Shown: positions 10,909 through 60,319 of the stretch, piece by piece
How the letters are laid out: each line of letters begins with the position of its first letter
How positions within the stretch are numbered: the first letter of the stretch is position 1
NCBI GenBank assembly: GCA_009760855.2
Contig: WPIO01000144.1
Location: 287,501-351,500, forward strand
Direction of reading: 5' to 3'
Source: Cristatella mucedo
Taxonomy: Eukaryota; Bryozoa; Phylactolaemata; Cristatellidae
Length of the DNA stretch: 64,000 bases
Position numbers and translations under genes: made by a program
Notes under the pieces: model-generated
Seen by the model: only the letters and a program-made list of their open reading frames with translations
Database searches by the model: none
What the model was told of the DNA's origin: nothing

Positions 10909-10966
10909 CAACCGGCTCCTCAACATCCTCAACTTTTACTTTTACTTTAAACTGATGTAAACCTGA

Positions 10967-13365: not shown

Positions 13366-13367
13366 AA

Positions 13368-24745: not shown

Positions 24746-24904
24746 AATGATTAATGATACAGTCATTCTGTTCCTAATAATTCTCTATTTACAAAATTTC
24801 CCATCAAATCCAAGAGCGAATTTTCTTGTGCATGCTCAGAAGGCCTTGATGGAATGCACTGAAATAATCGATAATAATATAGTAATAATAGATAGATATA
24901 CTGA

Positions 24905-29075: not shown

Positions 29076-29293
<218 letters not shown>

Positions 29294-34602: not shown

Positions 34603-34825
34603 TTATTGAATGCGAGCATTGTTGTTGTTTTTGTGGCCAGCGACAAGGATTGGGTGCACATTGGCTTATAATGCGTCGACAGAAAGCGTCAATCCGTATT
34701 TAGCTAAAGTTTGGAAGCTGGCGGTCACGAGTCAGTGTCTTTCCAACCGCTTCGTCGTGGTTTCCGTTGAATGATCGGGCATGCCCAAGCAGTGCCGACG
34801 TCAGCTAGGGCGCTCATATTTAATA

Positions 34826-34945
34826 ATAATAATATTGCACTTGATAAAGCGCCCTCAGAGAACTTAATCTCTTTCTAGGCGCTTTACATTTGCTGCAAAG
34901 TGATACGCAATAGAATAGTAAGTAAAAAATATTTGCATGGACAAA
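34826..34945 (-). mobile_element. LINE 3' end
   Basis: Minus-strand copy of the last 115 bp, well conserved. Confidence 0.8.
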
Positions 34946-35261: not shown

Positions 35262-35368
35262 CACCTGCGATTCCCTTTGCAGCAAATGTAAAGTGCCTCG
35301 GAAGAGATTGAGTTCTCTGAGCGCGCTTTATCAAGTGCATTAGTATTATTATTATTAATATTATCAGC
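35262..35368 (+). mobile_element. LINE 3' end
   Basis: Plus-strand copy of the last 105 bp, ending in an ATT tail. Confidence 0.8.
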
Positions 35369-36602
35369 GCCACGCAATACCTCCCTCGGGTGACAGACTT
35401 GGTGACACTTGGGACAAGACTAGTGAGTCTGTCCGCGCTTGGTTTCACCCCGGCTGATGAAGGCTCGCTGCGAATGCTGCTTTTAAAGTCGTTTAATTCG
35501 CCACTCGCGTTTAAGCAGGCTCTCGTTAAGGGGCGAGCATTTGGGCTGCTGCTGCTGGAATGGGGGGGGCTACTTGCTACTTACTACCCCCTCCCCAGCG
35601 GCAGCTGCAGCCCAGAAGACTGCTGCGAACAGTTCAGTCAGTTAGCTCAATCGTGACGCCGACTCAAACTTCCTTTCCATTCAATGACGACGAGCGAGTC
35701 AGTCGCTGCATCTTCCGATTAAAGGAAATCGGAAGAATCTGTCTCCCTGAAGCGACAGTGAGATGGCGTTTTACGCACTACCGGCAGGCGGAGTGATCGT
35801 TACAGCGAGTCGGGCTAGGGCACCTCGAATCGACGCCGCCGCCAGGCTCGAAAGTGCAAAGCTCGGGTCAAGAAAAGACGGCCGACCGAAGGTCGCGGGA
35901 ATACCTGCAGCAACGACGCTAGCTTCGTGGAGTCCATTAGCACCGACCACGTGACCACGGCAACGTACACGCTCGCGATCGGGGACAAGTGCATAGTTAT
36001 TATCATTATTATTCCCGTCAGATTTCCGAGTGGAGCGGGCGAAACTTGAGCGGAGCGAGTGCAAGTCCCAAATGCGCCCCCAGCAGGGGGCGGAGCGCGG
36101 CCGGGTCTGCAGGCGCGTGACTGCAACTGCTGACGCACGAAAAAGGTTAAGAGCTGCTGCTGCGGCGGACAGGCTTCAAGCAGGAGTTCGAAGTCAGCAA
36201 ATTGGGCTTGCGAACAAAATCCGCGGTCGCGTACGCGAGAAGTTGAGAGCCAAGCGACGCAGTCGCACTGGGTGTCCTACACCGGATGCACAAGTCCAGG
36301 ACAAAATTGTACGTATCTGAATAGCGGCTCCAAAACAAATCTTTTGCTCAAAAGATAACGGTCGGGACCAACACCGGTAGAGCCGGCGCGGCTAACGATT
36401 GGTTGAAAGCAGCCAATGATCATGCGAGTTGCGAACGCTCGCTCTACTCTACGTACAATAAGTATTGCCCAAATTCGATTGTACAGTACTAATACAAGCT
36501 TAAGAGTTTCTTGCTATATTCAACTCCAGCCATAACTTTTTGAAAAGCATCGCGAGATCAATAGGAGCACGCCGTCTGCCCTAGTCTGAGGCCAGCCATT
36601 TA
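35369..36602. other. No gene seen
   Basis: Short open frames only. A possible LINE tail scrap (CAAGTGCATAGTTATTATC) at about 35985. Confidence 0.45.
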
Positions 36603-40339: not shown

Positions 40340-40345
40340 TTTAAT
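40340..40345 (-). terminator. Candidate polyadenylation signal for notum
   Basis: ATTAAA on the minus strand, about 640 bp after the notum stop. No AATAAA is seen closer. A SINE begins beyond it at about 40005. Without transcript data this is only a candidate. Confidence 0.25.
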
Positions 40346-40981
40346 CACTTTAAAAAATAACCGTACGTTAAATAAATATGTCAGAAGTTTGAGCGCTCAG
40401 CCTGCACATACACGCCCGTGGCCTATTCGGACAGGCCTGCCGTGCTGCGAAACAATAATCTAGGCAGCTTGCTGCCACAGCCATAGCATACAGCTGGAGT
40501 TCGTGGCACGGCCACACGGCCACGTCGGCTGACTAGACGGCGAAGGCGTGGCTGTGTCTACAACAGTAGGCCGTAGCCGACTTAAACCTGACTTACTACA
40601 TTGCTGCCACCTGCTCCTGCTGCTACTTTCTCCGGGGATGAGGAGGAGGAGGAGGAGGAATGCAGCAGGTCGGCTTAAAAGTGCAGCACGTAGAGGCGAT
40701 CACCTGTCGCCCCCGGCCCCCCCCCGCCCCACCCCAGCTGTCCCGCGGACCGCCGCTCTAGCAGCCGATCCGGTGGCGGCAGCAGCAAAGCGGGCATCCC
40801 ATCGCGAGACATCGGCTCTGGCATCGGCAGTTCCTGAGTAGATCCTCGAGCTGCGACCCTTGGCATTCGGATTCGTCCCGGAGGCACTTTGTCGGGGTCG
40901 CTGTCAGAGGCCCAGCGTGCGAGCCAGCCAGCCGCTGTGCAGGGCGTGAAAGAGGGCCTTGCAGTCTTTGGTGTCCTCTAG

Positions 40982-41289
40982 TCACCTGTTGTTCGAGTAG
41001 AAGTCCCAGGATTCCGCTGCAGAGGCAGGAGCGCCGAGTGCTGCACCAGCCGGCAACAAGGATTCGCTATGCTGCTGTCCGCCAGCGCTTCCGAACATGG
41101 CCAAAAAGTTTGGGCACCTGAAGTTGCAGTATGCCCCCTCGCACGAGTCCATTACTCGGTGACTGCACTGTGCTTTCTTCTGCTCCCTGTACTCGATCAA
41201 CTGGTTCGTCAAGGCCAGCATATCGATTTCCGAGCTGCCAGCCACGGCCATTTTCAGAGTCGCCGATGTGTCCTTTATCGCCAGAGATC
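40982..41289 (-). CDS. notum: notum exon 13 (C-terminal Cys motif and stop)
   Basis: Codes for residues 504-605. The Cys pattern MDSCEGAYCNFRC keeps the C-x4-C-x3-C spacing of vertebrate VDSCPWPHCNPSC. The acceptor TTACAG follows a run of C. The frame ends at TGA, after FYSNNR. A weak donor (GTGACT) overlaps the stop, so a further exon is possible but not needed. The tail after the Cys motif does not match vertebrate Notum. Confidence 0.82.
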
Positions 41290-44200
41290 CTGTAATGAGC
41301 AGCAGGGGGGCACACGAGCTATTAGAGCAGCACGGGGGGGGGGGGCACACGAGCTATTAGAGCAGCACGGGGGGGGGGGCACACGAGCTATTAGAGCAGC
41401 ACGGGGGGGGGGCATACAAGCGGAAGAAGCGGAGCGAGCGAACACCCGCTACCCAGATACAACTTCAGCAGCAGCAACAGAGCAACCGTTATTTCTTCTT
41501 TGGTGGGTGGTCGGTACCTTCTATGGAGACCTCGATTGCCCGACGCTACGATCGCAGCTTGTGAGAAATAGCTGCGCATTTGGCTCTCAAGCGGTGGCAG
41601 CGTCAGGGGCAGGCGACAGTCGCTCCTAGTACATACCATCTGCACTCCTTGGTCTGGCATCTCTCGGCTGGCGATTGCTGTGAACGCTGGTGCTGGACCG
41701 CGTTGGTGGCCGGCTGGCTTTTCTAGTGGAATGTCTGGGCGAATTGTTTCGGCCACTGCCCGTGGTCCCGGCATTGCCACCACGACCTGATGGCAACCGA
41801 CGATCCGGAGATACAGCCCTAGTGTTCGATGAGTCTCTGCAAACCAGAACGGTCATGGACAATCATTGATCTGCAATGCAACATCTGGTTTGAATAACAT
41901 CTGCATTTGCTGCGACACAGCAAATCAATCGAACCGCTAGTAAGGAGGAATTGATTTGCTTAACCCGAGACTTAAACTGTGTGCCTACGGTACTACCAAG
42001 TAATATGAGAATGTCGATTCATCAGCCTGCTTCCTCCGGACAGCCCCAATGAAGTCATGTCCATATCAACTGGCAGAGCAAGGATTTTCATCTAGGGGGA
42101 GCAAGACCTGCAAAGTTTTTGTGTGTGGTGTGGCAAGACCCGGAAGATTTTCGCGAGGCGGTTTGGACCGGCAATTCGTGAAAAATTACAGCACAAAGTC
42201 GCTGAGTCTATCCGACACGAGCTTGGCGGTTGATCATCGGGCGGACATTTAGACACTATTTCCCGTTGTGGACGGTCGGATGGTGCATAGGAATAAGCAG
42301 CGACCCGGGTCACTGACGCGATATAGTGGAGAGAACCTTTGCCAAGCCACTTGACACACCCCTTCAGGTCGGTGCAAAAAGGCCAGCATCCATGATAGCA
42401 ACTGATATTCACGAATCCCTAGTCATCCAGCCTTGCTTTCTTCAGCATTTAGTATCTGTCCTTGATCAGTGGCTTGTGCAAATGCGCAAGGGCAAGCATC
42501 CGTACATGTTAAAGCCTCTGTGTGTGTGCGCGCGCACTAAACATAAGTTTGCATGTACACAACTGGCCGTTCAACAAAATACAAGCTGATTAAACAGCCT
42601 CTTGTGTATAGCGACAGAAGAGCCTTTAATGCTATCACAACTGCTTGCTTGTGCGATAATGGATCGCCCACCGCAGGATTCGAACCTGCGACCTCAGGAT
42701 CGAGGTCGTGAAAAGCAACCGCCTTACCAAGTGTGCCATCACGGCTCGCCAAAGCTCAAAGCCCAACGTCTTCACCTTCGTTCTCACAGTAGTGAATCCC
42801 TGCTTGCGGGCAAACTGTGATGCTAATAGAGCAATAGAGCTTTCTGTCGATGAAGAATAAGCTGCCGAGCTTGCTCTACTGCTGCTTGGGCAAGGGAAGG
42901 CTTGCCCCGTGAGGATCATTTGGTGCCATCAACTGCCAAGACTTTCCCATTAGCTGCCTGCACGTTCAGCAGCCACAAAAAGAGATGGCTACATTGTGCA
43001 GCTCTTCTCGATTCATGGTGCCTCATTACTTTTTCGTGAGCACTTGCATGGAGCTCAGAATGAGCTGGAGACTCAACAAACAAAAAAAAAAGAGTGGACA
43101 CCCAGCAATGGACCTTGAACTGGCTCCCGAGTTTAGGGAGCAGTTTGTCTGCTAGCCAACTACAGGCAAATGGAGGCTGCTTTTAGCTTCGTTCTCTTCC
43201 TACTCTTGGATTCACGTTATCAAGGGTCGGGAAAAGTGATTTGCACGGTCATCAAATCGCATCAATTGGAGCCAGCATTGACTGGTCTATATAGTACAGA
43301 TCAAAGAAATAGACAAGAGCTGGCAGCCATTTGTGAGAACCATTACCAAGTGATTAAATGGTAGCAGCCTGGGAATTAGTTGGGGATGACTAGCTATGGC
43401 TCAGTACACACACAGACAAAGGACATTTCTTATGGGCATGGCAGCTTGGAGTGGTGAAGCATGGACAGCAGGCAGTGTGCCCTCTCACCTGGAGGACGGC
43501 CGCACACGATTGGTTGCCTGCTGGCTCTCCTCCCAGCACTTTAGTGCATCGTGCAGAGATATGCCATTGATGGCCAGCCTGTACCAGAAGCTGCAAAGCA
43601 AAAGGCCAGGGCTGCTTACCACCTCTGCTGCTGCTGCCCATAAGGCCTGCACAAGCAGCAAAGCGAGGAGGGTGCGGAGGAGGCTGAAATCAGTGCTCAG
43701 TTCTCTCTCAAAAAGCTACATCACCAATGGCCCCCAGATGCATACTGCACGAGCGAGTTGCATGCCACAGCTGCCGGGAGCTACATGCTACTGTCGTTCA
43801 GCAAGGGATTGGAATGCAGAAAAGAATCTTTTTCAGATACATCAACATTTCGTTTAGATCGCTCGATGGCCACTATCAGCGTAGCAGTGATGCAGAGCAG
43901 TTTTGCTCACGTTTGTGTCGGTTCCCTCGGATTTTACTCTCTCCCTCCTGAGCACGAGGGTGCATTCACGAAACACGGAGGTTGCACACTAAAAGCTGGG
44001 TATCTAGGCAAGGGTACAGAAAAAGGAACACTCAATTTGAGAGGATGCCAGGATTTTTTCTGTACATATTCCACTGCTGGATGGGTGTGGACATCGGCAC
44101 ATGCGGTTCACCTTGGTACACAGCTTACAATGGACAGGGCATCTCCACGAATGGCAGCTAAGTCTTTTGCTTCTGATATTTGTCTGAGACGTTGCAAATG

Positions 44201-47200
44201 TAATACTCATTGTCCAATATGACGCCCAGAATATGAGCAACGAGTATCGCTATGGTATTACATAAAAAAAAAGCAACTGCAACAGGGCAAAACCACTCTC
44301 ACGGGTGATGCTCGATTCTTTTAACTTTCCCGACTTAGCAAATGACACAAACCAAAAATTGTGGCAAAGCATCTGGCTAAGTTGATAATGCTATTGCCAC
44401 TATGCCTAGCATGGACACATGTCAATCTTAGATAAGGCCAGCCTGTGCTTGCTGCTTACCTTTTCAAGAGGATTTCGTGAGCCAAACAGGCCGGTGCAAA
44501 CACAGCCCTGCAAAGAAAGTGTTGACTGTCATTAAACAGGGACATATTGGGTTGTGATTCGTTCGATTGTTAGCCTGAGACCTCGTTGCAAACGTCAGAA
44601 GAGAGCTGGTGATCGGATCATGGCGGAAACAGGATATATATACAGTCAGTGCACTGATATGGATGTGGTAGACCAGGAGCAAGCAGTGAGTAGTGCAGCA
44701 ACGAGCACGATCTCGCCTCAAGCGGCCTACATGCTGCATTCACAATTCGAAGGTCACAGGAAGGAAAGGTCACTTACGCCACTTCATGGAGAGTTCGGTT
44801 GATCTTTTGGCCGAGACCTTGCAGATATCTTTCACTCTCCTGTTGGTCTCGTTGGCTGCCGTAGGGCATCTGCTCAATGTGTGACAATCCACTGTGACCC
44901 ATGTTGGTTAAGACCTGGGCCGCATCGAATAGAAACTGAATGATGAAGACCGGTGCTGCAAGTAGAGTAATGTGTCAGCATTTGACCTTGGGTGGCTGAT
45001 GCTGGAGCGCTGGGACATCTAAAGAGCTGCTTGGCCACCAGCTAGCTCTATTATGTCCTGGGGAGATCACCTTCCCGCCGCACCCCTTGCCCCCCCCCCC
45101 AGCTTCGGGACCGGGAGAGGAAGGCTGCATGGCCCGTGCTTCCCCCCTCTCCAACGCATGAAGCTGCCAGCTCTGCTTGTGTCTGCTGCTTAAGTTATCA
45201 ACATGGCAACAGCTATTTTCTACCGATCGGGGTCTATGGTGACTTGGATTGATCTGCTTTTAGACAGGCACTGGCAGCACGTTTTCTCCCGGGTTTCGTC
45301 AATTCGAGAACACGAAGGTTCTAAAAACGTCTCTGAAACGACTTCTCTCTGAAAACTTGCGAAGCTAACGACCATCGACCAGGCTACTGTTCTGCATCGA
45401 CCGGGCAAGCAGCAGTGGATCGAAACCTCGGGCAGCATGAGATGCTCTCTGCCGGCATCTGCTCTATCCCGACTCTGGATCTCAGACTCAGCACAGTACG
45501 TGCAGAAGACAGAGAATGAGCCTGCTTCTAGATCTACAGCAAAGTAGCACCGAGCTTGGCGGATGAATATCGCAGCTCGTGCACACCTCGCTGTGCAGGA
45601 GGGCGGAACGCTGCCACCATGGGGGTCAACTGAAAGCTTCAAGTGGGACACTTCTTCTGCCACGGGTGCCAGCCACACTACGAAGGCAGCTTACTTCATT
45701 CAAGCCGGAGGGAGGCTTGCCAACTTTCCAGTCTGGCCTAGGCCGGTCTGGCCGAACAGACTGAATGTGTCCAGGTGGACTTACTCTTTATGAATGGATA
45801 CAGTCTGTAGCCGAAGAAGCACCTCCACGGCTCGTGTCTGTATTCCTGCTCGCAGGCGTGTGGGATTCGTGCTTTCCAGTACCTGGACGAAAAGGAGAAC
45901 GCCTCGCTGAGCCACGCAATGCCGAATTGAGAGTGCGCAGATCCGAGCGAATAGCTCGAACAGAGCGTGTTTTGGCAGCGGGGAGCAGTGAAGCAGGCTC
46001 TAGCGGCAAAGCATAAGCGCCCAGACGAAGTGCCCAGACTGCGCAGTGTCGATCTGGCGGTGCTGACGCAGGCATCGGCCCGCATGACCGGTGCACGCCT
46101 AATAAACAACAAACAACGGGGGGGGGGGGGGGGGGGGGGGGTGTGGGTGCTTGCGACCTCGTGAGCAGCCTCTTTAGAGGAGCTAAGCTCTCCTCCTCCT
46201 CCTTCGGGAGAGACCGTCCTCTGCCCAGCTCTGAGCTCCTCGAGTAGGCTGGGCCTCCTGCTCGGCCTCAAGCCGAAAGCGAGCACTTGCTTGCCCCAGC
46301 CACCCACCCACCCACGGTGTTCCTTCTGCTGCCGCAATCTGCTCACAGCTCTCTCTCTCTCTCTCTCTCTCACTGGCATCTGGCTGAGTCTGCGCTCGAC
46401 AATCGCGAGCTGAGCTGTACCGGCATCGCACAGTTCAGTTTCTGGTATGCTTGCTTGTCCACTTAAAAAGCCTGGCACTGGTGAATTGAAAAAATGTGCA
46501 AGTGGCATGCCACAGCTGCACGTGTCCTTACTTTCACCACAACCCCCCCCCCATACCACCACACTCGGCACGTTGGGAGTCTGCCTCACGGAATATAAGT
46601 GTGCTTGCTGACCTGGCATGAGAACCTAGTATGATAGCCCCATGAAAAATCTGGCAAAGCAAACAGTCTGAGCGACTTTGGCCATTTTGTGAGCCATCAC
46701 GTCCGAAATGTCAAGGCTGCAGCAGCCAGATAGCAGTCGGTGCCGTTGAGCAGAGGGCCGTTGTCGAAGAGCAGCTTTGTTGGTAGTTCTCCTTGACGGC
46801 CATAGAAGGTCGCATGACCGTGGAAAACTTCCATGCCCATCATAGCAAGAAAGTCGTAGAACACCTGAGCAATGCAGCTAGCTACAAGGCAGGCCTGACA
46901 ACCTCGGCAAGCAGTCGTCTGCGGCCTCCAGGGTGCCGGGTCGCACGGGAGACAGCTATTCAGGTCCTGCTCTGGCTAGCCCTTTTCCCGGGGTCCACTG
47001 AGCGATCACGTATGTCTACGATACATGTGGCCCTTGTTGGGGACACTCTCACCTTATATCATTAGACCAAAGCTGTGTCACCAATTAAATGTAAGATCGC
47101 CGTAGACATTTGCCAGGATGTCACCAGCTGAATGAACCAGCTGAAAATTCAGCAGTTGATGAGCACTACCCGACTAAGTGTTGCGACCGGTTCGGCCAAA

Positions 47201-50200
47201 GGAAGCGATCGTGTCGTGCCGACACGGGCAACGAAGGAGAGTGCAAAATCATTGCACCAGTGAAGCAATGGCACTGCAACCTTTTTATTTTACAATGGAC
47301 TCCCCTGGCCACTATGCCCAAGACAAATGAACATGCTCACTTTGTTGACCTACTTTTCACAAACCGTTTAGCAGTGGAGTCCACCGTTCCTCTCCTGGAC
47401 TTCGCATTGCATGTGCAGCCGTGACTCAGGGAATTTGAAGCCTGGGTCACACTGGCCGACCTTGATGTCCGGCCCCTGACACGAGATAACCTGATTGCAG
47501 CTGAGTGGCAAGCTCGGCAATCAAGGCCAAGGTTTCGCCCGGCTTATTGCTAGACCACAGCAACCTAAAATACTGGGGGGGGACGCACAGTAGCACACAC
47601 CATTCACAACTCGACATGTCCTGACCCGAGTTGTTCGAAGACTGGATGACAGAAAGGAGTGCCATTAAAAGGGGTGGCGGCTCACGTGTTGCTAGCAGGA
47701 CCTGGCCGCGTGACCGAACTCGTTTAGGATATGATACTGCCTACAGCCACTTAGGCCCAGCAGTTCATCTGCTGCCCAAGCGAGAGCTTCGGCTTTCCAC
47801 GGTCTGCAATCTTTCTCTCAATACCGCCTGTGTCGCACCAGCAGCGTGCGATGCTGTGAATCTGAGCAGTTCACGCCCCGTGCCCGCAGCGCGGTTCACG
47901 CACCTCATGCGCTGCCTCTCTGCTATATCAACCAGCCTCTCCTTGTTCCCATCCCACAAAGCTGCGACAGCAGAGCAGCGCACATACCTCGAGCCTCGCT
48001 TCATGGACTCTGCCGGCGCGCACTGGATTACGTTTGTGCACTTGACCTTTCTCAAGGGAGGCACGTCGACGAACCAGCCCGAGTCAACGATGCCGAGCAC
48101 GTTGACTCCAGGTGCGCGCTCCGCCAGCAGCGCTGTGACCCGGTCGAGGTTGAGCAGCACCCCTGTCCCTCCAGCGCTATAACAGAGAGAGTGAGAGAGA
48201 TGACAGCGTGTCCCGCTCTTCGAAAAGCTAGTTCATTGCTACCGTGCAACACTGATGCTCCATGGGGGGGCAATCGCTAGCAAAAGGAGGCTCCTTTCGG
48301 GAGACAAGCAATCGACGAGAAACAGCCTCGATCTTGCCCTCCGGCACTTGGTCGTACGAACACTGTGTCCGGTTGTTTGCACCACTCATCCTGCTAGCTA
48401 CCCATAAGCGAGCACTTCCGGTCACATCTGTCCATCCCGTCGTCTTTGTTACCGACACGATTGCAGTGGGTGTTGCTTTGCAGAGCTTCACATCGGCCGT
48501 AAGTCGAGCAAGTAAAGCAAGTAAGTCTCATCAGACAGTGGAGCTCAGCGTGGCAGGCGCGAGCAATGACTCAATCGGCGCTATCCACTGCTTTCGCACA
48601 AAATGGGACTCGTTCTGCATTCTGCTATCTCGAAGTTTCTATCTATTCATCTCTCACACGTAAGCAAGGTCCGTTGGTGTAAGCAAGGTCCCTTGCTTAC
48701 ACCAACGACATCAGCCATGACTCTCCCTGCTGAGAAGCATGGGTGAGCCCAAAATAATTTCTGCTTTAGACACCTCGGCAAAGCATTTCATCTGTCTTTT
48801 TCTTGTTCGACAGATTTCAGTTTCCGCCGGACATATCCTAGCAATACTATACATACATTTGCATAACAGCCGAAGAGAACTTGACATCTTTCTATAATAA
48901 CAATAGCATTTGTATAGCACCCTCCAGAGAACTGATTCTCTTGCTAGGCACTCCACAGGTACTGTACAGCAAGCATTACTAAATGACTGGTGTGACATCA
49001 GGCACTTTGCATGTGCTGTAAAGGAAGTCGTGGCTCAGTGACAAGTGAAACAAAACCAATCAGCTATTAAAACCTATCGGAGAGTTGTGGAAGCCTTAGA
49101 CCACCTAGGGAAGAGCCTAGAGCCTAGGCTCTCTGTCTCTGTCTCTGTGTGTGTGTGTGTCTGTCTGTCTCTCTTTGGAGTACCACGGCGCCAGTCGTGA
49201 CTGGAGAACCACACAGCCGCACCTCTGGATGACCGCATCACGCCAGCTGGCAGTGCGGGAGGGGGCCACCACTGAATGCCCCACCACTGAATGCGCTTTG
49301 GCAGCGATCACGAGAGCTCTTCCATTTCCTGTTGATACCTTGCAGTGGCTGCCTGAGTCAGTCGTCAGACCACATTTGTATGCAGATGTCGACTTGGCAC
49401 CAGATCTGTGGTGACTTCCATGATAACTGGCGCCAGCAGCTGCAGCGAGCTTTCTATGGCTGTCCAGCATACGCTTATACGCCATTGTCAGGCTGAGCGG
49501 GCCAACGTGTCCCCCTACAGCATCGAGTTGCTGACGACTCTAAGCACAAGCAACGTTGCACCCAGAAAACTTTCTCGACACCAGGCTGGCACCACCGTTG
49601 AAATAGAAGTTTGAACTTGGGCTGGCCAATCAAAACAGAGGCTTAGGTCACCTGACGTCGGGGTCACCCTACAGCCGGCTTTCCCTTCATGCACTACCAC
49701 TAACCGTTCGATCGTGCACTACCACTAACCGTTCGATCGTGCTTCCTTTGCAGCAAATGTAAAGTGCCTAGAGAGAGAGAGAGAGAGAGAGAGAGCTCGA
49801 TCTCGTTGGTCGATCGATCTGAGGGAGCCTGCTTGACAGCCGAGTGGCTGCAAGTGGCTATACAAACGTATTATTTTCACTATTATTTGCGCAGCCACAA
49901 GCTTTCAGTGAACCCAAGTGCCCAAGTGGAAGCCTCAAAGCACCAGCACGAATGTGTGCAGCCGTAGCATACTGTATCCAGGGACAGTGGTCTAGGGCCG
50001 AAATAGCCCAGAAGGTAAGTTAAGTGCCAACTACACGTGGTGGTGGTGGCAGCCGTTAAGACTCTTCTGCCTCTGCACAAATGCGCCTGCTATAAATCAT
50101 CAAGTAATAATTAATAGGTGGAAGCCTCTGCTCATGTTGGCAGCACGTGGGGCTTTGAAATACCTCGAGCCTGTCAGGAATAGCTTGTTGGCATCTCGAA

Positions 50201-53200
50201 GGCCGTGATTCAATAAGTCGACCATGACTTCGTCGATGATGTGAGAGCCCATGAAGAGGTGATTTCCTGGAATGAAAATGTGGGTGTCACTCTTGCGCGC
50301 TCCTCTTTCAGCAGTTGCTCGGCATAGCTCGAGCCTTGGCGTGCAAGCTACTGACAATAGACGCAGCTCACCTTTGGTGACAGTGCCTGTCCACCCATCG
50401 CTGGAGCAGTACGGCACGAACCTAGAAAGGATGAGTCGCTTGAGGAGAGCGGAGCCCGGCAGCAGCGTGTCAGGCTCTCAGCGTGTCCAGCCACATGACA
50501 GGCTTTTGTGTGCATACTACCAAGCTTGGCATGTCTGCTAGCTCGCGCCGCACCAACGACTCGGTGCATGTTCGCTGCAGCAGCCAATCGCCAAGCTGCT
50601 CGGCGCCTGAATCGCTTCTGTCCTGGCTGCTGCAGGAACAGGGTGGCTTCTAAGTCACTTTTTGATTAAATCGGCTGCTACTTACACGACGTTGGCAAAA
50701 AATAAAAATGGGTTCTCCTCAGCATCGGCTGACAGGATACCACGACCTGCACGAACAGAAACCGTGCATTGTGATTGCACCGGCATCGTGATTTGGCAAC
50801 CAAGTCACAAACGAACACAAAACCAAGATAGGATAGATATAGCATACACCAGTACGTATCGTCAGTTCGAGATCGATATAACATCCACTGCTACACATAT
50901 AAGTACGCCGATACATGCATAGATTATGAATTAGCCTTGAAGCTCTGAATAGCCACCCATGCCGGATGTATGTCCAGACTTCCGGGCAGTGATCTAGCCT
51001 TGCACTTCTACCATCGCCCCTGAAGTTACCTGTTAACTATCCTTTAATAAAGCTAGCTATCCTTCCCTCTCCTTTCGTCACTGCACCGGTGTTTTCCGGC
51101 TGCTGTGCCGCGCAGTGAGAGCCGAGCACAGCCTCTGCAGGCAGCAGCAGCACCTCTGCAGGCAGCAGCAGCAGGTCGGCCGCTTTGCGCTCACTCACCC
51201 TCTAGGGCCGGAGACCAGCGAATCGAGCTGGTGAGATTGGGCGAATTCACCAGCCTCGAGTTGCACGTGGCGTTGTCATAGCAGTAGGAGCCTCCTGAAA
51301 CGAAAAAGGCAAGAGCTGCTCAGGCTGAACCGAACTACTAGGCCAGGGGCTACGATCTAAGTCAGAGGCTACTATGTCAGGCCAGAGCCAGCCAGCCAGC
51401 GAGCGAGCAGACGTCATCATGCGAGTCCCTCCCTCACTCTCACCGCCCGTGGCCCCTAACCTCTCCGTGTGTGGGCAGGCCCAGGAGCCGAGCCAACTTG
51501 CTCGGACGGCCTGAATTCAGTTGTGACTGGCGATCGCACTGCCTGACAACTGGTAATCGAAATGGCATCCCGCCTGCCCCTGAGCAGCAGCAGCAGAGCT
51601 CCGATGAGCCGAGCTCTAGCTGCTGCTTTGATGCCCTGCCGAGCTGGCCTCTCCAGCCTCGGCCGGAAATGCTAAATGACCAGGGAGCACAGCAGCATCG
51701 AGCTGTCGGCGGTGGCCATGGAGTCGGCCGGCCGGTGGGAGGGGGGGCAGCGAGACATTCGAGGCATTCTCATGCTGCTTGGCCTCGGCCAGCGCTGGCC
51801 AGGACAGGGCGGAGCACTTGCTGCTTGCTGTGCTGGACAGGACAGCTCAGCTGTCCTCTGGGCGCTCTCTGCTGCCTGTTGAAAAAAAAGGGCAAAGTGA
51901 GTTCGTTCTGACCTATCAGCCTCGTAAGCAGCAGAGGTAGAAGAATCTTTTCGACGTTCTCCAGCTTGCAGAAGGCAGTAACGAGTCCCTGCCGCAGCAG
52001 GCAGACGACGCCGGAGGCATCACGTGATTGCAGCCACGTGACGTGCAAGCACCTGGAGCAGCCACTGGACCAAGCGGCCTGCTCACTGTGCTCTCTGCAG
52101 CCGACCTGAAGCCGACACTAGCTGCCAATCATCTGTCCTTAGTGGAGGCACAGATGGCCTGTGTGCATGCAGCTTTCTTTAAAGATCACTAGCCTGCCAG
52201 CAGTTACCTACCCTCTCATACTGTCTAGGTGGGCCTCGGGCAGGTGCAGCAGCACCATCACCCAACCCGCCTCCGGTAGGGGGGGGATTGCTCAGCACTT
52301 GCTGAGCAATCGCCGTGTGGCACCGCACAGTGGACGTGCTGCAGTAGCACAAGTCGTGCCTCTGCTTCGAGGCAACACTGACACTTAAAAGGCTGATTGC
52401 CTGGATCACAGGTACAGCCGATCCTGTTCGAAGGCATTTAACTGTCGGAAGGTGCAACCATGGCAACAGAGGCACTGAAGCTACATAGGGCAGGCTCTTC
52501 ACTGTCTCTGGCAGCTAAGCGATAAAAAGCCGGCTAGCTAAATAGCCAACAACATGGCTGCTGACGCCCCTGGCTGCTGCAGCTAATTGGTCTTTGATAG
52601 TAGGAATTGCTATTTGCTTTGATGCATGCAACCGGTCCGGTTTGTAAACACCGGTGGCCAGTTCGGAGCTAGGGAGGCTGCCTCCACTGCCGCTGGAGCT
52701 GCTCGACGCTTACGATGTCTAGGATGCTTTGGAGGGAGCAGGCCCAGGCACTGCCAGGCTCTCTTTCTCTGTGTGTGCACGCAAGCATGCTGGCATGCCC
52801 CGGAGGACCTGGGAGCAGGTCGACGAGCGATAATAAATGAATTCAAGGGATAAATCCAACGACTCGACGACAGACACTCAAACAGTCAGAATCGCAGCAG
52901 CGCGGGCTACAAGCAAGCTTAGGTGAGCCGTAATGGCTCACTAGGTAAGGCGGTTGCCTCGGCGGCCGAGGTCGTGGGCTCGAATCCTGCAGTGGGCGAT
53001 CCTTTATCGCCACTGCAAGCGGTGGTGATAGCCGTAAAGACTCTTCTATCGCTATACAAAAAGAGGCTGTTAAATCAGCTAGCATTTTTTTCCACCGACA
53101 AGCTAGCAGGCACGAAAGAACGGGCTACAACTCTGCATCTCGTGCTCGTGCATGCACTCACCTTCAAGGAATACGAGCCATTTTCGGCTTCTGCCGGGCG

Positions 53201-53777
53201 ACTTTCGAATGTAGTATCTACAAAATTCGGAGGACATGATAGTAGTCATAATAGTAGTAATAATACAAATATATTTGTTGTGCTGAGAATGAGCTGGCAT
53301 CGAAGCTGCCCGCACGGCACAGTCTGAAGGACAGCAGACTTGGCGACTTGGAAACTTGAAAGTAGAAGAAAAACTAGAAGAAAAACTTGTAGTAGAAGGA
53401 AACTTGAAAGCAGAAGAAAAAAGGAAAGAAGAAAGAAAAGAAGACACTTCTTACAGAGAAAGGAGACTTGGCCCTTGGTCACGTCAGTCACGTCACCCCT
53501 AACCCCATAATATTCATGTTGTTTGTTTATCAAGCATGATATTACTCACCGTTCAATTGCATTTCCCTTTGCAACAAATGTAAAGCGCCTAGAGAGAGAT
53601 TTGAGTTCTCTGAGGGCGCTTTATCAAGTGCATTATTATTATTATTATCATTATTATTGGTCTTGGGAGCCCAGTGAGCAGCAGCAGTCGCAAGCCAAGC
53701 CAACCTGCCCAAGCCGTCTAGGCCAGCTGACGCCCAGCAATGGCCGGGCGGCCCGATGATAATAATAATAATAATAA

Positions 53778-53851
<74 letters not shown>

Positions 53852-56579
53852 ATTTGATACAGCGCCCTCAGAGACCTCAATCTCTTTATAGGCCCTTTGC
53901 ATTTGCTGCAGGGGAAATGTCAGGGTCAGGTCAGCCAAACGAGCTCGAGGTTTTCAAATTCTCTCGATCAAACAACTCTTGTGCTATACTTATACTTATA
54001 CGTATACTTATGCATAAGCACCGAGCTCAAACCCTCCCTCCCTCCCTTCCCAAACCACAACAGCTAAACGGCTGCCGAATTTCCCGGCGAACATCTCTCG
54101 AAGACCTTGGCATCCAAGGAGAGCTGGGGGGGTGGGTCGCGGGTGCAGTAGGCAGTTCGGTCGTCCTCCCGCAGCAGCAGCAGCAGCAGCAGCAGACGGT
54201 CCACCGCCTGCTGGTTGGACATCGATCGTGGACGTTTCAGCTTTTTTCTTTTTTTTTGCCGGTAAAAAAAAATAACCATAACGGGCTCCGTTCGCCCCCT
54301 CTACGTGGGAGCTGGCTCGGTCTCGGCAGCTAGGCTAGGCAAATCGTCGGCCGAAGCAGCAGCTGCAGCTGGGTGGGGGAGAGGGACGGGCAGCAGTGAT
54401 TGTAAACGAGGCCCTCGGCGGTCGAGGAGCCCATTTAACAGCAGACCTGCTTCCCCCCCCCCCCCCCGAATCCCGGCGATGAGCTAGAGCTAGCGCTGGT
54501 TGAGCTGAGCGGCAGGAGGTCGGTTGCAGGAGCTGATCGGAAGGGACCGGACATGTCGGCCTCGAGCACAGCTCTCTTCCTCCCGAAGCAAAAGAGCAAC
54601 GTCGTCAGGAACTGCCACATTCGTTCAGAGTATCCGGAGTATGGCGGCTGCTGCAGCAGCAGCAGCTGGTGCAGCAGCCGAGTAGCCCGGCAAACAAACT
54701 TCAAATGGTGGAAAGGAAGACCCTTTTTCTCGGTGGCTGCAAGCGATAGGGTTCGTGTCATGAAACAATTCAACTCGGCCGACGCACCGCTGCAGTGCAT
54801 CACCGCCTCAGCACCACCCCCTCGTCGCAGCCGCCAGCCGCCCCCCCCCTGCACAAGCTCGACGGGGCCGGACAATAAGACGTCGATAACAGGCGACGCT
54901 GTATCGGCTCCGACGAGGCGAGACGGTCACGAACCGTCTTATTTGACGCCCAGCGAACCCCGGCGGATATTATTGTTCTGCTGCGCCGCGGCAGCGTTGT
55001 TGGCTGTCCGCGAACCAGCGTCGTCGCCGCCGAGGAGGCGGGTCCGGATCTATAGCAGAGGGCGGGCTCGTGTGGGGGTGGAGAAGCCGGAAACGCACCC
55101 GGCATGCGAAGCCAGCCAGACCTACCGCCAGGACGGCTCAGTGACGGCTGACGCCGCCGAGTCGGCCAAGCGCGGGAATCGCCCCTGCCCCCTCCCTCCC
55201 CCACCCCACCGAATCACAGCGTTTGCGTTATGCTGCGGAGAACCCGATGGCCGCGACGTCAGAACGGCAGGCCGGTAATGACGTCATCGGCACAGCTCGA
55301 GAGGTTTCGCGGGCGTCTCGCCGCTGGCTGCACAGCGTCATGCCCTGACGGCCGGACGGAACGGCAGCAACCGCACGAGCGGCTGCCGCCACGTCCTTCC
55401 AGTTCGCGGCGGCCTACGCTGTTTCGCGGGCTTGCTCCGCTGCGGTGCCTCGCGGCGTGCGCTCGAGCGAACGAGTCGAAAAATTACGACAACTAGGAGC
55501 CGGAAACCCTGCGGCAGCCGCCGCCGCGCGAGCAAGCTGGTCATTAACCTTCGCTGCTTCCCGAGAGAGCCGGGCACGCCGGACTCAGACGCTTTCTGTC
55601 CCGAGCTACGGCTAGCATAGCTCGCCAGACCGACGCGCCGACAGACGCCGCGAGCGCACGCACGGCCGTTCAGAGCGAATGGCTGCCGGGCCTTCGAGAA
55701 CGCCGACCAAATGCCGGCGCCTCCGCGGCGGCGGCGGCGGCGGCGGCGACCGATCGCAACCGCCGTGCGGCGGCGCGAATAAAACGATAAACAAAAATAA
55801 ACGCCGGCGCAAGCAAACTCTCGACCGCGTGAGCGCTCGCTCGCGACCGCCCGCGCTCGATCCACCGCGCCTGCCTGGAGCGGTTCCGCCCACGCGGCCG
55901 CCGCGGCAGCGAAGCGATCGCCGCGGGCGCCTGACTAGCGCAACGGCTAAAAGTCGCTCCCGAGGTCGCCAGCAAGCAGCCGACGCCGTAGAGGCGGACG
56001 CATGGCGGCGCCGCCGCCGCCGCCACTCAATAGTCCTTCGCTCGTTAGCGGAGGGGGGGTTGCTTGCAGCGAGACAGCAGCTGGTGCTGCGAAGCTGCAG
56101 CGGTCGGGCGACCGACACGAGCTCGTGCGCTCACGCTCCGTCGCGTCGGGTCACGCTCGCCCGCGAGCCCGCGATGGGGGCCGCGAGCTCGCGGGCGAAG
56201 GGCCGGGCACGATCGCGCGTGCTCGCGCGCGCGCGAAGGCAGGCACTCACCCGATCGGCGAGCCGTCCATGCACTTGGCCTCGCCGGCCAGCATGATTCG
56301 CCTCATCTGCGACAGGGGCCGCGTGTCGACGCCGCACTTGTTCAGCGTGGTCGACAGCTGTCGAATCGTCGACACAATGTTGTCGTCCGCCGACCGCTCG
56401 ACCGCCGCCTCGGCCTCGGCACCGCCTCGTCGTGCCGAGTCGCGGGCGGCGGCGGCCGAAGACAGCGACAGCAGCAGCAGCAGACCGTGCGCTACTGCGA
56501 CGACGAGGATCCTGCCGACGGCGCTGGCGAACGGCGGTCGTGCCGCCGCCGCCGAAGCCGCTTCGCCCAGCGCGAACAT
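40982..56579 (-). CDS. notum: Notum palmitoleoyl-protein carboxylesterase, 13 coding exons
   Basis: The join of 56579-56251, 53217-53162, 51294-51199, 50746-50686, 50421-50372, 50266-50164, 48176-47988, 45882-45785, 44955-44778, 44507-44460, 43590-43489, 41836-41637 and 41289-40982 gives 605 residues. All introns are GT-AG and all phases agree. Family members are secreted alpha/beta hydrolases that deacylate Wnt at the cell surface and so limit Wnt signalling. Seen here are a signal peptide (about 1-46), CMDGSP, KWLVFLEGG, EENP, VPYCSSDGW, the nucleophile motif GSSAGGTGVLLN (Ser232), DSGWF, CFFGY, Asp338 in FLFDAAQ, His397 in CLAHEIL, and a C-x4-C-x3-C motif near 553-562. Vertebrate Notum is about 500 aa. 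The excess comes mostly from a linker at about 437-544. The pocket segment after EENP reads FLFF where human has YWWN, and the Trp after LEGG is Ser. Identity is firm; exon 12 and the C-terminus are the least certain parts. Confidence 0.93.
41305..41415 (+). repeat. 36-38 bp tandem repeat at the notum exon 13 acceptor
   Basis: Three units of a G run plus CACACGAGCTATTAGAGCAG in intron 12. In gene orientation each unit is a C run followed by TGCTGCTCTAATAG, an acceptor-like sequence. Confidence 0.9.
41637..41836 (-). CDS. notum: notum exon 12 (probable lineage-specific Arg/Ser-rich linker)
   Basis: A 200-nt exon for residues 437-503, rich in Arg, Ser, Pro, Gly and Asn and predicted by eye to be disordered. 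It has no counterpart in vertebrate Notum. Support is indirect: acceptor TTTGCAG, donor GTATGT, an open frame, and a phase change from 2 to 1 that is exactly what joins exon 11 to the strong acceptor of exon 13. Without it, exon 11 would need an internal acceptor in exon 13, such as the AG at 41240-41250. Confidence 0.62.
42585..42755 (-). mobile_element. tRNA-derived SINE in notum intron 11
   Basis: Minus-strand copy, sense to notum. Box B is GGTTCGAATCC and box A is near-consensus. The segment between box B and the tail is altered. Confidence 0.85.
43489..43590 (-). CDS. notum: notum exon 11
   Basis: A 102-nt exon for residues 403-436, starting with Ser-Phe-Trp and running through NGISLHDALKCWEES. 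It matches vertebrate HWTDVQVKGTSLPRALHCWD. Acceptor TTGCAG, donor GTGAGA, phase 2 on both sides. The longest open frame here is in another register and is a shadow. Confidence 0.9.
44460..44507 (-). CDS. notum: notum exon 10 (catalytic histidine)
   Basis: A 48-nt exon for residues 387-402, AVFAPACLAHEILLK, matching vertebrate SFAPACLSHEIIIR. His397 is the triad base. Acceptor TTGCAG, donor GTAAGC, phase 2 on both sides. It is too short to stand out as an open frame and was found by homology and phase. Confidence 0.93.
44778..44955 (-). CDS. notum: notum exon 9 (catalytic aspartate)
   Basis: A 178-nt exon for residues 328-386. It reads PVFIIQFLFDAAQ, matching vertebrate PVFVVQWLFDEAQ, so Asp338 is the triad acid. 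An N-glycosylation sequon (NRT) lies near its end. Acceptor TTGCAG, donor GTAAGT. Confidence 0.94.
45785..45882 (-). CDS. notum: notum exon 8
   Basis: A 98-nt exon for residues 295-327, beginning RYWKARIPHAC and ending CFFGYRLYPFIK, against vertebrate CFFGYKVYPTLR. The two adjacent Phe line the palmitoleate pocket in the known structure. Acceptor GTCCAG, donor GTAAGT. Confidence 0.94.
46118..46141 (+). repeat. G24 homopolymer
   Basis: Twenty-four consecutive G in notum intron 7 (C24 in gene orientation). Confidence 0.95.
47988..48176 (-). CDS. notum: notum exon 7 (nucleophile serine)
   Basis: A 189-nt exon for residues 232-294. Its first base completes AGC for Ser232, followed by AGGTGVLLNLDRV. 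It continues through DSGWFVD and CTNVIQCAPAESMKRG, matching vertebrate LADSGWFLD and ITCAPTEAIRRG. The acceptor follows a long CT-rich tract (TTATAG) and the donor is GTATGT. Confidence 0.96.
48672..48707. repeat. Near-perfect hairpin in notum intron 6
   Basis: Perfect 17-bp arms (CGTTGGTGTAAGCAAGG) separated by two bases. GTAAGCAAGGTCC is also repeated directly just before it. Confidence 0.92.
48890..49062 (-). mobile_element. LINE tail in notum intron 6
   Basis: Diverged minus-strand tail (same strand as notum): CTAGCAAGAGAATCAGTTCT and GGTGCTATACAAATG, ATT-poor end. Confidence 0.6.
49691..49740 (+). repeat. 25-bp perfect tandem duplication
   Basis: Two identical units each starting GCACTACCACTAACC, in notum intron 6. 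Confidence 0.95.
49740..49882 (+). mobile_element. LINE tail in notum intron 6 with GA expansion
   Basis: Plus-strand 3' end in which the GAGAGA of the conserved CCTAGAGAGAGAT motif has grown to about 28 bp of GA. The rest of the tail (GGCTATACAAACGTATTATT) follows. Confidence 0.65.
49990..50105 (+). mobile_element. Truncated SINE in notum intron 6
   Basis: Keeps a box-A-like segment (ATAGCCCAGAAGGTAAG) and the body GGTGGCAGCCGTTAAG, but box B is deleted. It lies next to the exon 6 donor. Confidence 0.5.
50164..50266 (-). CDS. notum: notum exon 6
   Basis: A 103-nt exon for residues 198-231, starting GNHLFMGSHIIDEVM and ending KLFLTGS. It ends with the first two bases of the codon for the catalytic Ser232. 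Acceptor TTCCAG, donor GTATTT, which is a weaker donor than the others. Confidence 0.94.
50372..50421 (-). CDS. notum: notum exon 5
   Basis: A 50-nt exon for residues 181-197, VFVPYCSSDGWTGTVTK, almost identical to the vertebrate FIPYCSSDVWSG core. The acceptor is TTCTAG and the donor GTGAGC. Intron 5 downstream is only 105 bp. An open frame runs through the intron into exon 6, but the intron has proper splice sites and its translation does not match the family. Confidence 0.94.
50686..50746 (-). CDS. notum: notum exon 4
   Basis: A 61-nt exon for residues 161-180 reading GRGILSADAEENPFLFFANV. It matches vertebrate GTGILSSQPEENPYWWNANM, with the paired Trp replaced. Acceptor GTGCAG, donor GTAAGT. 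Phase goes from 1 to 2. Confidence 0.92.
51199..51294 (-). CDS. notum: notum exon 3
   Basis: A 96-nt exon for residues 129-160. It begins GGSYCYDNATC, matching vertebrate GGWYCFNRENC; the Trp of the acyl pocket is Ser131 here. Two N-glycosylation sequons are visible, at Asn136 (NAT) and Asn148 (NLT). The acceptor has a good pyrimidine tract ending TTTCAG and the donor is GTGAGT. Phase is 1 at both ends. Confidence 0.92.
52918..53092 (+). mobile_element. tRNA-derived SINE in notum intron 2
   Basis: Full-length copy, antisense to notum. Box A (TGGCTCACTAGGTAAGGCGG) and box B (GGCTCGAATCC) are present. It lies close to the exon 2 donor. Confidence 0.85.
53162..53217 (-). CDS. notum: notum exon 2
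   Basis: A 56-nt exon for residues 110-128, reading YYIRKSPGRSRKWLVFLEG, the counterpart of the vertebrate segment ending RRWLLFLEGG. This is the strand and turn that supply part of the oxyanion hole. The acceptor is TTTTGTAG and the donor is GTGAGT. Phase in is 2 and phase out is 1. A tRNA-SINE in antisense lies about 70 bp downstream of the donor, inside intron 2. Confidence 0.93.
53475..53660 (+). mobile_element. LINE 3' end in notum intron 1
   Basis: Plus-strand copy, antisense to notum, with conserved 3' UTR and ATT tail. Confidence 0.85.
53757..53851 (+). repeat. (AAT)n/(TAG)n microsatellite
   Basis: About seven AAT units then about 24 TAG units, forming the expanded tail of a LINE copy. 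Confidence 0.95.
53757..53935 (-). mobile_element. LINE 3' end with expanded TAG tail, notum intron 1
   Basis: Minus-strand copy whose tail is (AAT)n followed by about 25 TAG/TAC units at 53778-53851. It faces the previous copy tail to tail across roughly 100 bp. Confidence 0.8.
54172..54196 (+). repeat. (CAG)8 repeat
   Basis: Short CAG run in notum intron 1. Confidence 0.9.
56251..56579 (-). CDS. notum: notum exon 1 (signal peptide)
   Basis: Codes for residues 1-109 plus two bases of Gly110. The ATG is the first in its frame and has A at -3. After a 24-residue n-region rich in Ala comes a hydrophobic core (ILVVAVAHGLLLLLSLS) and an Ala-rich stretch ending before Arg46, which is typical of a secretory signal with a long n-region. 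The rest matches the Notum N-terminus, with Cys82 and Cys103, and ends in CMDGSPIG at a donor reading GTGAGT. Upstream translation cannot be fully excluded because the block is GC-rich and open in several frames. Confidence 0.88.
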
Positions 56580-56688
56580 GCTCGCCTTCTTGCGACGCGC
56601 TCGCGCCGACGACGCCGAACTCGTGTCTCCGCGAGCGTACGGGCGCAGACTGGCTTCTTCCGTCGAGCCGCCGCAGCTATTAGCCGTC

Positions 56689-56812
56689 CGGATTGGTCGC
56701 CTATCTCCGCCTCGCGAGAGCGCCTCCCGCGTCTCTGACCGCGAAACGCTCCGCAGTCTCCTCCGCCAATCGTCGGGCGGGGGCGTCGGAGCCCTCGTCC
56801 GTAATTGGTCCT
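56689..56812 (-). promoter_or_regulatory. Two CCAAT boxes upstream of notum
   Basis: ACCAATC at about 56690-56697 and ACCAATT at about 56803-56809, both in gene orientation, 110 and 230 bp upstream of the notum ATG. The motif is NF-Y-like. Function is inferred from position only. Confidence 0.35.
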
Positions 56813-58602
56813 CGAGCTCTGCTCTTCGCCGGCGGCTGAAAGCGAACGAGCCCCGCTAGACGACGCCCGCCAGCGACGAGCCGGCGCCCCGCGGCAGCCC
56901 TCTCCTGCGAGCGAGCGCGCGCGCGCGGCCGCTCTAAACGCGAGTGCTCTAGCGCAGCGAGAGAGGAAGGAGAGCGAGAGCGCCGCCGCCGACCAGCGGC
57001 GGCGGCCGAGCGCCGGCGCGCGGGCGCGCGCGACCTCTTGTTCGCGGGCGGCGCAGCTGGCGCGGATATCCCGCGGCGACCGCAGCCGCAGTTCCGCAAA
57101 CAAACCGTAGCGATCTTACTTTATTCACGGCGGTCGCATCAAAAACCGCACGATCGTGCCTCCGCCTTAAACTTTTGAGTACAGATCGATGGCGGCAGGC
57201 CGGCAGGCGGCGCGACCGGCTCCAGCGGCGGCGGCGGCGTGGCGGACGCGTCCTAGGGCCTCCCGATACGACCGGCCGCAAGCAGCAGCTGCTGCTGGCT
57301 GCGGCGCGAGGTGGCAGAGGGTTTGCAGCGAGCGACCTGCGTCGCCCACATCAATGGAAGAGCGGCGGCGGTCCTCGTCGAAGACCTCCCCACCCCTAAC
57401 CCCCCCCCCCCCGCAACACGTCCGGTCCGCCGTCTATCGCCCATCTACCGGAGCTCCGCTATCTTTAGTCTATCTATCTATCGCAGCCACCGCAGCGCAG
57501 CAGCGCAACAACCTCGACGCTGCTTCCTGCCGCCATTAGGCTACCGGCGGCAAGTGGCCGTCGTGCTGCTGCCGCCGCCGCCGCACCGAGGCAGCACCCG
57601 CGGCGATCGCGAGGTCGTCCCTCCCCGCCTTCTCCTCGCGCGCCCCCGGCGAGCCGTCCCGGCTGGAAAGCAGTGCTCGGCGGAGGTCCGCTACGCGCGA
57701 GCTTCTCTAGCTGCCGCGCGCGGCGCTCCTCGAGCGCGCCGCACGCACGCACGCACGCGATCGCTTTCGGTCACGTGCCTACCAAGACGGCGCGCCGCGG
57801 CCGCGCGCGGGACCGAGATGCGGGCGTCGCGTAAGGAGTCGAGCCGGACGGAGGAGACGGCGGCAGCGGCGGCCGCGGGCGTAGCGCGCCGTCGCTACGC
57901 TGCGCGGTGCCAGAAGCCGCAGCCACTCATTGCCGTAAGGTCGCGCGCGGCAGCGCCCGAGCGCCGAACTCACACGAGACGCACGCGCGAGAAGCCGTCC
58001 GTCGAAGCCGACGGCGCCTGGATCGCCGGCTGTCGGACGCTACGCGGACGCGACGCAAAGGCGGTAGCGCGCGCTACCGCGGCGCCAGCCGGGAGCGAGC
58101 ACGGGCAGCGTCCACCGCGCGCGCGGACGCGATCCGGCGGCGGCGGCGCGTCGCTCGCGCCAGCTCTGCTCCGGAGCGTCCGGCGCGCTGGAGGCCGCCC
58201 GGCGGCCGCGGCCAAACGCTCGAGCCTCCAGCGGCGCCCGCGCGCGAGAGGCTCCTCTCGAGCCCGATTGCGAGAGAAAGCCGAAAGGTCATTGCTGCCC
58301 TCGCCAAGACCGACCGACCGGGCCTCGGGCCCGCGCGCTAGCGCGCGCGGCAAATCCACGAGCTAGCCAGCGCGTACGTACCGCCGATTCGCTCAGCGCG
58401 AGCGAGCGCGGCTCGGTCCAAGCGCTCTGGAGTCTGGGCGCGCTCGTCTGCTTCGCTCTCGCTTACGGCCGACGGGCCGCCGGTATCCACGGAGCTAGTG
58501 CAAACGACGAGCGTAGTCGAGGCAGCGCCGGGGGACTGTGCGTCTCCTCTTTTAACAGGATGGGCGCCTAGCTCGGCACCCTTCCAGTGATTGGCTGCGG
58601 CA

Positions 58603-58611
58603 AGATCAAAG
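58603..58611 (+). promoter_or_regulatory. TCF/LEF-type site AGATCAAAG
   Basis: Matches the optimal TCF/LEF core. It lies about 2.0 kb upstream of the notum ATG, next to an inverted CCAAT (ATTGG) at 58590. Notum is a known Wnt target in other animals; binding here is inferred. Confidence 0.4.
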
Positions 58612-59194
58612 CAGCCCGCAGATAAGCCGCGCTTTGCGGGATCGCTCTGCGGTGGCCGCCGCCGCGCGGCCGCCGCGCGAGCACCGCCCGGTTGAGGAGC
58701 GAGCGCGCGCCCGCGAGCGTGCAGCTGCGCGGACGCGCCACTTTGAGCAGCTGCCGAGAGGCGACTGCTGCGTGCAGCAGCTGGCGAGCAGCACTCGAAT
58801 CGGGAGAGCCGTCACGCTCCGGCGGCGACTGACGATCGACGCCGCTCACACCTAGCGACCGATGGGCGGTCTGCCAATAAGATAAGGCCGCCACCTCTGC
58901 CGTTTACAGCGGCTGCGGGCGCAGGCTGCCGCGGCGCCCCGGCCGGGCGGCGAGCTCTCGGCGCCGCGTCGTCGGGAGCTGCGAACTCTCTCTCTCTCTC
59001 GCGCCGCGTCCGCGCCGCCAGCAGCGCTCCCTCCCACCCCCCTCCACCGCCGCTCTATAGTCACGCCTCCCGCGGTCGCTAGGCCGCAGCTCTCGAGCGC
59101 TCGCCGCCGCCGCCGCGCGGGCTGCGCGCCCTAAGCCGGCCGGCGGCGGGGCAAATTGAATGCAAAACACCAATTTACTCTGCCAATTTAATTC

Positions 59195-59204
59195 CCTTTG
59201 ATCT
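59195..59204 (-). promoter_or_regulatory. TCF/LEF-type site AGATCAAAGG
   Basis: A full ten-base match on the minus strand, about 2.6 kb upstream of notum. It lies in an AT-richer pocket within the CpG block. Confidence 0.4.
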
Positions 59205-59314
59205 CGGGACGAAACAATTCGCCCGTGTGTGTTCGTGTCCCCCGACGAAACAATGAGCTCGGAACCTCGGAAGAAAGCGCGAGCTGCAGAGGCAGCGCTG
59301 TGCAGCGGCCACCT

Positions 59315-59340
59315 GCGCGCGCGCGCGCGCGCGCGCGCGA
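59315..59340. repeat. (CG)n repeat
   Basis: About 12 CG units in the notum upstream CpG block; alternating purine-pyrimidine of Z-DNA type. Confidence 0.9.
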
Positions 59341-59424
59341 GGCACGCCGCAGTGCAGAGCTGCCAGCCCAAGCCGTTTTGCCGCCGCTAGCTCCGCTGCT
59401 CGGGCGGAGGAGGCGGCGAGCTAT

Positions 59425-59507
<83 letters not shown>
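59425..59507 (+). repeat. (CCG)27 repeat
   Basis: About 27 uninterrupted CCG units followed by an AG interruption and a few more. Located 2.9 kb upstream of the notum ATG. Flanking open frames are compositional. Confidence 0.95.
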
Positions 59508-60319
59508 AGCCGCCGCCGCAAGATGAGGCGGCTTGTCGCCCGGCGGTCGGCCCCGGGCGGGTCGCATGGAGCACGGTTGAGCCGCCGAACAGGTGCGCGG
59601 TCGGAGTTGCGTAAGCTGGGCCTATGGCGAATCGGAGAGCGGAGAGAGACAGACAGACAGACGGACAAACAAAATGAGATACAGAGTCGGAGAGAGAGAG
59701 AGACAGCGACGCAAGGACGGTCGGCGCGAACTCGGCAGCTACACTAATCACTGCCTCAGCGCCGGCAGGCCGACGCCGCGAGCCAGCTTCCGGTCCGCAG
59801 CTACCCGACTCGTCGCGCGCGGCGGCGCCGCTGCTGCTGTCGCCGCCGCCACGGTTGTGCGGCGGCGGAAAGCGGCGGGCTGCGGCGCCGCTGCAGGCTG
59901 CTCCGCGGCTCGCTCCCACGCGCCGCCGCCGCGACGCACTCGCTCGCCCGCCGGCACCCGCAGGCCAAAGCGTACAGGTGCGGCGATGCCGGCGTCAGAG
60001 CCGGGGGCGGCCTGGCGGACTGCAGCATCCGGCAGGTGCTCGCGGAAATGCATCTCTAGCGTCATCATCATCGGCTAGGGTCAGCTCCGCCCGAAGCAGC
60101 GGCTAGTAGTGTCAACGGCGGCGGTCCGAGAGAGGATTGGCGCAGGGGTGCGCGGAGGCGTCGTCGAAGGTGCACAGCTCGCGCGCACGTGCATCGAACT
60201 CGGCGCTCGCCCGGACGCGCGAGCGGCGACACTTCCGGCCGCTGCGCCTATCGGCAAACTTCACTGACGTGCGCCGTAAACTTAGAGTGAATTAAAAGAC
60301 TTTTCCTTACGGCCAAGTA

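Follow-up and report, generated by a model that had tools for sequence, protein, structure and literature searches.

Notum is a secreted enzyme and a central Wnt antagonist, which silences Wnt signals by cleaving off the fatty acid that they carry. The described systems closest to the locus presented here are human NOTUM (PDB 4UYZ, 4UYU), Drosophila Notum, also called Wingful (PDB 4UZJ, 4UZK), and the plant pectin acetylesterases (PF03283, CE13). According to PMC8365597 and PMC7027535, the triad of human Notum consists of S232, D340 and H389, and its oxyanion hole is formed by the amides of G127, W128 and A233. The plant enzymes share with our locus the Pfam family and the Ser-Asp-His layout, whereas their GCSxG and HCQ motifs, as given in PMC5465549, stand against GSSAGG and AHEIL in our model. 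The window analysed here is a stretch of 64,000 nucleotides from Cristatella mucedo. Its minus strand very probably carries an intact protein-coding animal Notum gene, with one or the other of two 3' ends, and the locus is an ordinary new member of this well-known family.

Spliced alignment and gene model

In a first pass, all minus-strand stop-free segments of at least 20 residues between 40500 and 57200 were translated (n = 245), and Notum-like segments were chosen by eye, joined with X at some junctions and compared with PDB using phmmer. All eight sequences with E ≤0.001 were Notum, human Notum being at the top (3e-68). We also used a purpose-written protein-to-genome spliced aligner (three intron phases, GT/GC-AG introns, BLOSUM62, and a generic splice-site table) to place human Notum, residues 64-456, on the minus strand of 40500-57500; the residue numbers were set by placing S232. 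The alignment followed a single collinear path through all 393 query residues, with 12 exons, 11 GT-AG introns in compatible phases and 166 identities in 388 aligned columns (approximately 43%). It contained no stop and no frameshift, the latter having been named in the original prediction as the sign of a pseudogene. With the same query the opposite strand scored 63, four further stretches of 17 kb (both strands of two regions) 46-59, 12 first-order Markov genomes 60-90 and 12 shuffled queries 69-98. The Drosophila Notum chain, run through the same aligner, returned the identical 10 introns over the part that it covered. Spliced alignment with metazoan Notum had been proposed as one check on the locus. 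The human query scored 805, against a maximum of 98 over its 24 shuffle and Markov controls, and the fly chain scored 578.

The 13-exon model below consists of the 12 aligned exons with a linker exon inserted (41836-41637), the last exon lengthened (41289-40982) and the start placed at an upstream ATG (56579).

Exon 1: 56251..56579, minus strand; 329 nt from the first ATG after an in-frame stop; donor CGG/GTGAGT
Exon 1, parts: minus strand; signal-peptide-like hydrophobic stretch (residues ~24-40), then homology from human residue 64 on
Exon 2: 53162..53217, minus strand; YYIRKSPGRSRKWLVFLE; human spliced alignment
Exon 3: 51199..51294, minus strand; GGSYCYDNATC..., with the oxyanion-hole Gly and Ser at the human/fly Trp128 column
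Exon 4: 50686..50746, minus strand; human and fly spliced alignments
Exon 5: 50372..50421, minus strand; FVPYCSSDGWTGTVT; human and fly spliced alignments
Exon 6: 50164..50266, minus strand; 3' end inside the codon of the nucleophile Ser (GSSAGG)
Exon 7: 47988..48176, minus strand; AGGTGVLLNLDRV...DSGWF...; human and fly spliced alignments
Exon 8: 45785..45882, minus strand; YWKARIPHACEQEYRHEPWRCFFGYRLYPFIK; human and fly spliced alignments
Exon 9: 44778..44955, minus strand; catalytic Asp (human D340) in FLFDAAQ
Exon 10: 44460..44507, minus strand; catalytic His (human H389) in CLAHEIL
Exon 11: 43489..43590, minus strand; SLHDALKCWEES...; human and fly spliced alignments
Exon 12, putative: 41637..41836, minus strand; Ser/Arg/Pro-rich linker, based on splice sites and phase only
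Exon 13: 40982..41289, minus strand; coding-like extension, then the homologous Cys-rich segment CSHRVMDSCEGAYCNFRCPN, an unmatched C-terminus and TGA at 40984-40982
Possible poly(A) signal ATTAAA: 40340..40345, minus strand; ~640 nt past the stop, a motif match only

The model stays open from 56579 to 40982 over 1818 nt, or 605 codons plus TGA, and each of the 12 introns begins with GT and ends with AG, in phases that fit together, reproducing exactly the 13 minus-strand exons and 605 codons of the original prediction. Homology covers the whole of exons 2-11 and parts of the two terminal exons: 134 nt out of 329 in exon 1 and, in exon 13, the 94 nt at 41186-41093 out of 308. It does not reach the initial 195 nt of exon 1, exon 12, or, in exon 13, the 103 nt at 41289-41187 and the 111 nt at 41092-40982, which include the stop. 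The gene is likely complete, as had been claimed, but its start codon, its 3' end and exon 12 lie outside the reach of homology and are putative.

The start and the 3' end of the model are plausible but not proven. An A stands at -3 before the ATG at 56579, and a signal-peptide-like hydrophobic peak (mean hydropathy 2.61) follows Arg23 at residues 24-38. The N-terminal 65 residues are without homologue support, and the open reading frame at 56247-56855, which holds exon 1 alone, had no Pfam match. At the other end, the last 36 residues were matched by nothing in the comparisons made, and local alignment of the human C-terminal tail to six-frame stop-free segments of at least 10 residues gave no convincing counterpart at the gene end (best score 38, on the plus strand near 1688; next 36, twice). 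Around and upstream of exon 1, positions 55001-60000 have a GC content of 69-73% and a CpG observed/expected ratio of 1.29-1.40.

Family identity, triad and cysteines

The model matched the Pfam PAE family (PF03283) with an E value of 1.9e-70 and a score of 238.2 bits, where the cut-off is 26.6, over profile positions 21-350 of 355 and model residues 100-424. When the 605-residue model was searched against PDB to E 10, 18 sequences were returned, the best eight of which were Notum (E 2.4e-97 to 3.6e-75); human Notum matched residues 59-430, before the putative insert described below, at 2.4e-97 and fly Notum at about 3e-75, and the remaining 10 matches were antibody chains with E 0.18 or worse. 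Another animal enzyme of the pectinacetylesterase family, that is, a paralogue with a changed substrate rather than Notum itself, is very unlikely to be the source of these matches. Pfam resolves the locus to the level of the PAE family only, and the columns of W128, V187 and V346 differ from human (fly differs as well at V187), as such a paralogue might. Against it, all eight PDB sequences below E 0.001 are Notum, although the library searched may contain no plant PAE; both the cysteine pattern and the PYCSSD segment conform to Notum; and GSSAGG and AHEIL stand where plant-type enzymes have GCSxG and HCQ (PMC5465549), a Notum form that argues against a plant-type enzyme. Relatives were also looked for in viral_contigs, where four pattern matches were found and none was confirmed.

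The Notum reading is carried further by the residues themselves. S232, D338 and H397 of the model fall at the human S232, D340 and H389 columns, so that the alignment holds the whole catalytic triad that had been claimed, and the codon of the nucleophile is split over the exon 6/7 junction. Within the segment 64-456, over which the model is collinear with human NOTUM, the model retains 15 of the 16 cysteines found in human; at the C330 column it has Thr instead, like Drosophila. The C-terminal cysteine segment was matched in three comparisons, among them the joined-segment phmmer search and the human spliced alignment. Human NOTUM differs from the model at W128 (Ser in the model), V187 (Gly), V346 (Thr) and C330 (Thr). 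Further differences are the putative ~100-residue insert (C413-C432), an additional loop of 10 residues following the Asp, and the C-terminus. Drosophila Notum shares the triad with the model, as well as the AVFAP and EPWRC(F/Y)(F/Y)GYRLYP segments, but lacks the C279/C285 pair, which the model and human both keep. Over 308 shared columns we counted 153 human-fly, 142 human-model and 127 fly-model identities, and 47 columns have one residue in human and fly but another in the model, Trp128 to Ser among them. The lower counts for the model than for the human-fly pair, together with these dissenting columns, make this a somewhat divergent Notum.

The 3' end and the genomic setting

The two candidate 3' ends differ in how exon 11 reaches the last cysteines. 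In the 13-exon protein, putative exon 12 and the beginning of exon 13 would together insert ~100 residues between the two cysteines that correspond to human C413 and C432. Neither exon 12 nor the leading 103 nt of exon 13 has anything to align with in the human and fly chains, and the fly chain is a shortened construct whose linker is therefore not comparable. Exon 13 has a strong acceptor at 41289 (8.7) and a weak one at 41186 (0.0). The extension upstream of 41186 is coding-like in its codon usage: of 4414 open, overlapping windows in introns, 1.0% score as high. Exon 12 itself has a codon score of -0.213, and of 1793 open windows in introns 71% reach or exceed that value. The test is a weak one: it was trained on the 436 codons of exons 1-11, and exons 2-11, which were part of the training data, range from -0.27 (exon 10) to 0.48. 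As exon 11 ends in phase 2 and the acceptor at 41289 is entered in phase 1, a bridging exon is required; the intron between exons 11 and 13 contained four open candidate exons at the thresholds used, two of which, 41836-41637 and 42843-42776, have the right phase change.

The main live rival shares the Notum reading and differs at the 3' end only: an intact gene in which exon 11 joins directly to a short terminal exon that begins at 41186, so that the linker is absent and the reading frame has 505 codons with the stop counted. The spliced alignments with human and with fly Notum alike chose this acceptor, and the lack of codon-usage support for exon 12 also speaks for it. However, the aligner favours 41186 because neither chain has anything to pair with the insert, and both the acceptor scores (0.0 versus 8.7) and the coding-like codon usage of 41289-41187 count against the shorter end, which we consider possible but unlikely. 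If the gene is intact, the 13-exon end is probably the correct one. Just upstream of the exon 13 acceptor, 41305-41412 holds approximately three near-identical tandem copies of a 34-35 bp unit.

The window had been called repeat-rich, and it does contain 87 rows of tandem repeats. Dispersed repeats within the window were sought with blastn (E 1e-8, minimum length 40 bp, simple sequence masked, and any hit beginning within 8300-10950 discarded); they overlapped none of the 13 exons and covered 681 of the 15598 bases of the gene span. A dispersed short repeat, possibly SINE-like, lies at 5357-5629, 13365-13768, 20115-20286, 24360-24747, 24869-25274, 34811-34927, 35264-35369, 53489-53658 and other places, each listed place being matched at its peak by 11-13 others in the window, and open reading frames over some copies show LIKR(A/P)QRTQ- and FTFAAKG-like strings. 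At 8365-10907 there is a C/T-rich tract of ~2.5 kb on the plus strand (A/G on the opposite one), which opens long artificial frames on both strands, and 29085-29287 is a long tetranucleotide array of ~50 copies of GTGC. The window as a whole is not CpG-depleted (observed/expected 1.05), which, together with the identity of about 43% to human Notum, suggests a probable non-vertebrate host.

Rfam gave no match in the window at gathering scores. Nineteen open reading frames besides the Notum model, 9 outside the gene span and 10 inside it, among the latter those with exons 8 and 13, were compared with Pfam and none passed the curated cut-off; four weak matches (E 0.006, 0.011, 0.019 and 0.11) fell below the curated cut-offs and were taken as chance. 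Such a scan of single frames misses short exons, since the frames that hold Notum exons 1, 8 and 13 gave no match themselves, and the window may thus hold neighbouring genes. The description of the gene as the functional core of the window is accordingly not established, given that only nine of the scanned frames lie outside the gene span.

The substrate pocket and the role of the product

At the oxyanion-hole columns (G127-W128/A233) the Gly and the Ala are kept, and Trp128, common to human and fly Notum, is replaced by Ser131. PMC8365597 and PMC7027535 describe the W128 contact as one of the main-chain amide, so a Ser at this column need not abolish catalysis. The side chain of Trp128 lines the pocket. 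Eight of the 11 melatonin-contact residues given in PMC7027535 are the same in the model (Y129, S232, A233, T236, F268, D270, P287 and F319), and three differ, namely W128 (Ser), V187 (Gly; Ser in the fly) and V346 (Thr). Near the Trp128 change, exon 4 encodes NPFLFFAN where human and fly have NPYW(W/H)NAN.

Changes of this kind could also mark a recently dead or dying Notum pseudogene, with its frame still open and conserved residues such as Trp128 already lost, and the 47 of 308 columns at which the model departs from human-fly agreement would fit that account. Approximately 400 homologous codons free of stops, frameshifts and broken splice sites argue against it, as do the retained triad and 15 of 16 cysteines, and the main-chain nature of the W128 contact (PMC8365597 and PMC7027535) removes the need to read its loss as the end of catalysis. 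We regard a pseudogene as very improbable.

In an intact Notum, the product would be a secreted alpha/beta-hydrolase, a palmitoleoyl-protein carboxylesterase, with secretion expected from the family. By analogy with its relatives, the enzyme would strip palmitoleate from Wnt through its Ser-Asp-His triad, and would act as an extracellular Wnt antagonist with a feedback role. It is tempting to speculate that this lineage has a remodelled Notum pocket (Ser at the W128 column, Thr at V346, Gly at V187) together with an extended basic linker of Ser, Arg and Pro ahead of the final group of cysteines, an idea to which we give a slim chance; if true, the remodelled pocket and linker might alter which acyl chains are preferred or tighten the binding of heparan sulphate, with the deacylase chemistry retained. 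The general understanding of Notum is unchanged by this locus. It flags an unusual active-site residue, at the Trp128 column, and an uncertain linker exon, and it provides a checked model of the gene for this central Wnt antagonist, of use in annotation.
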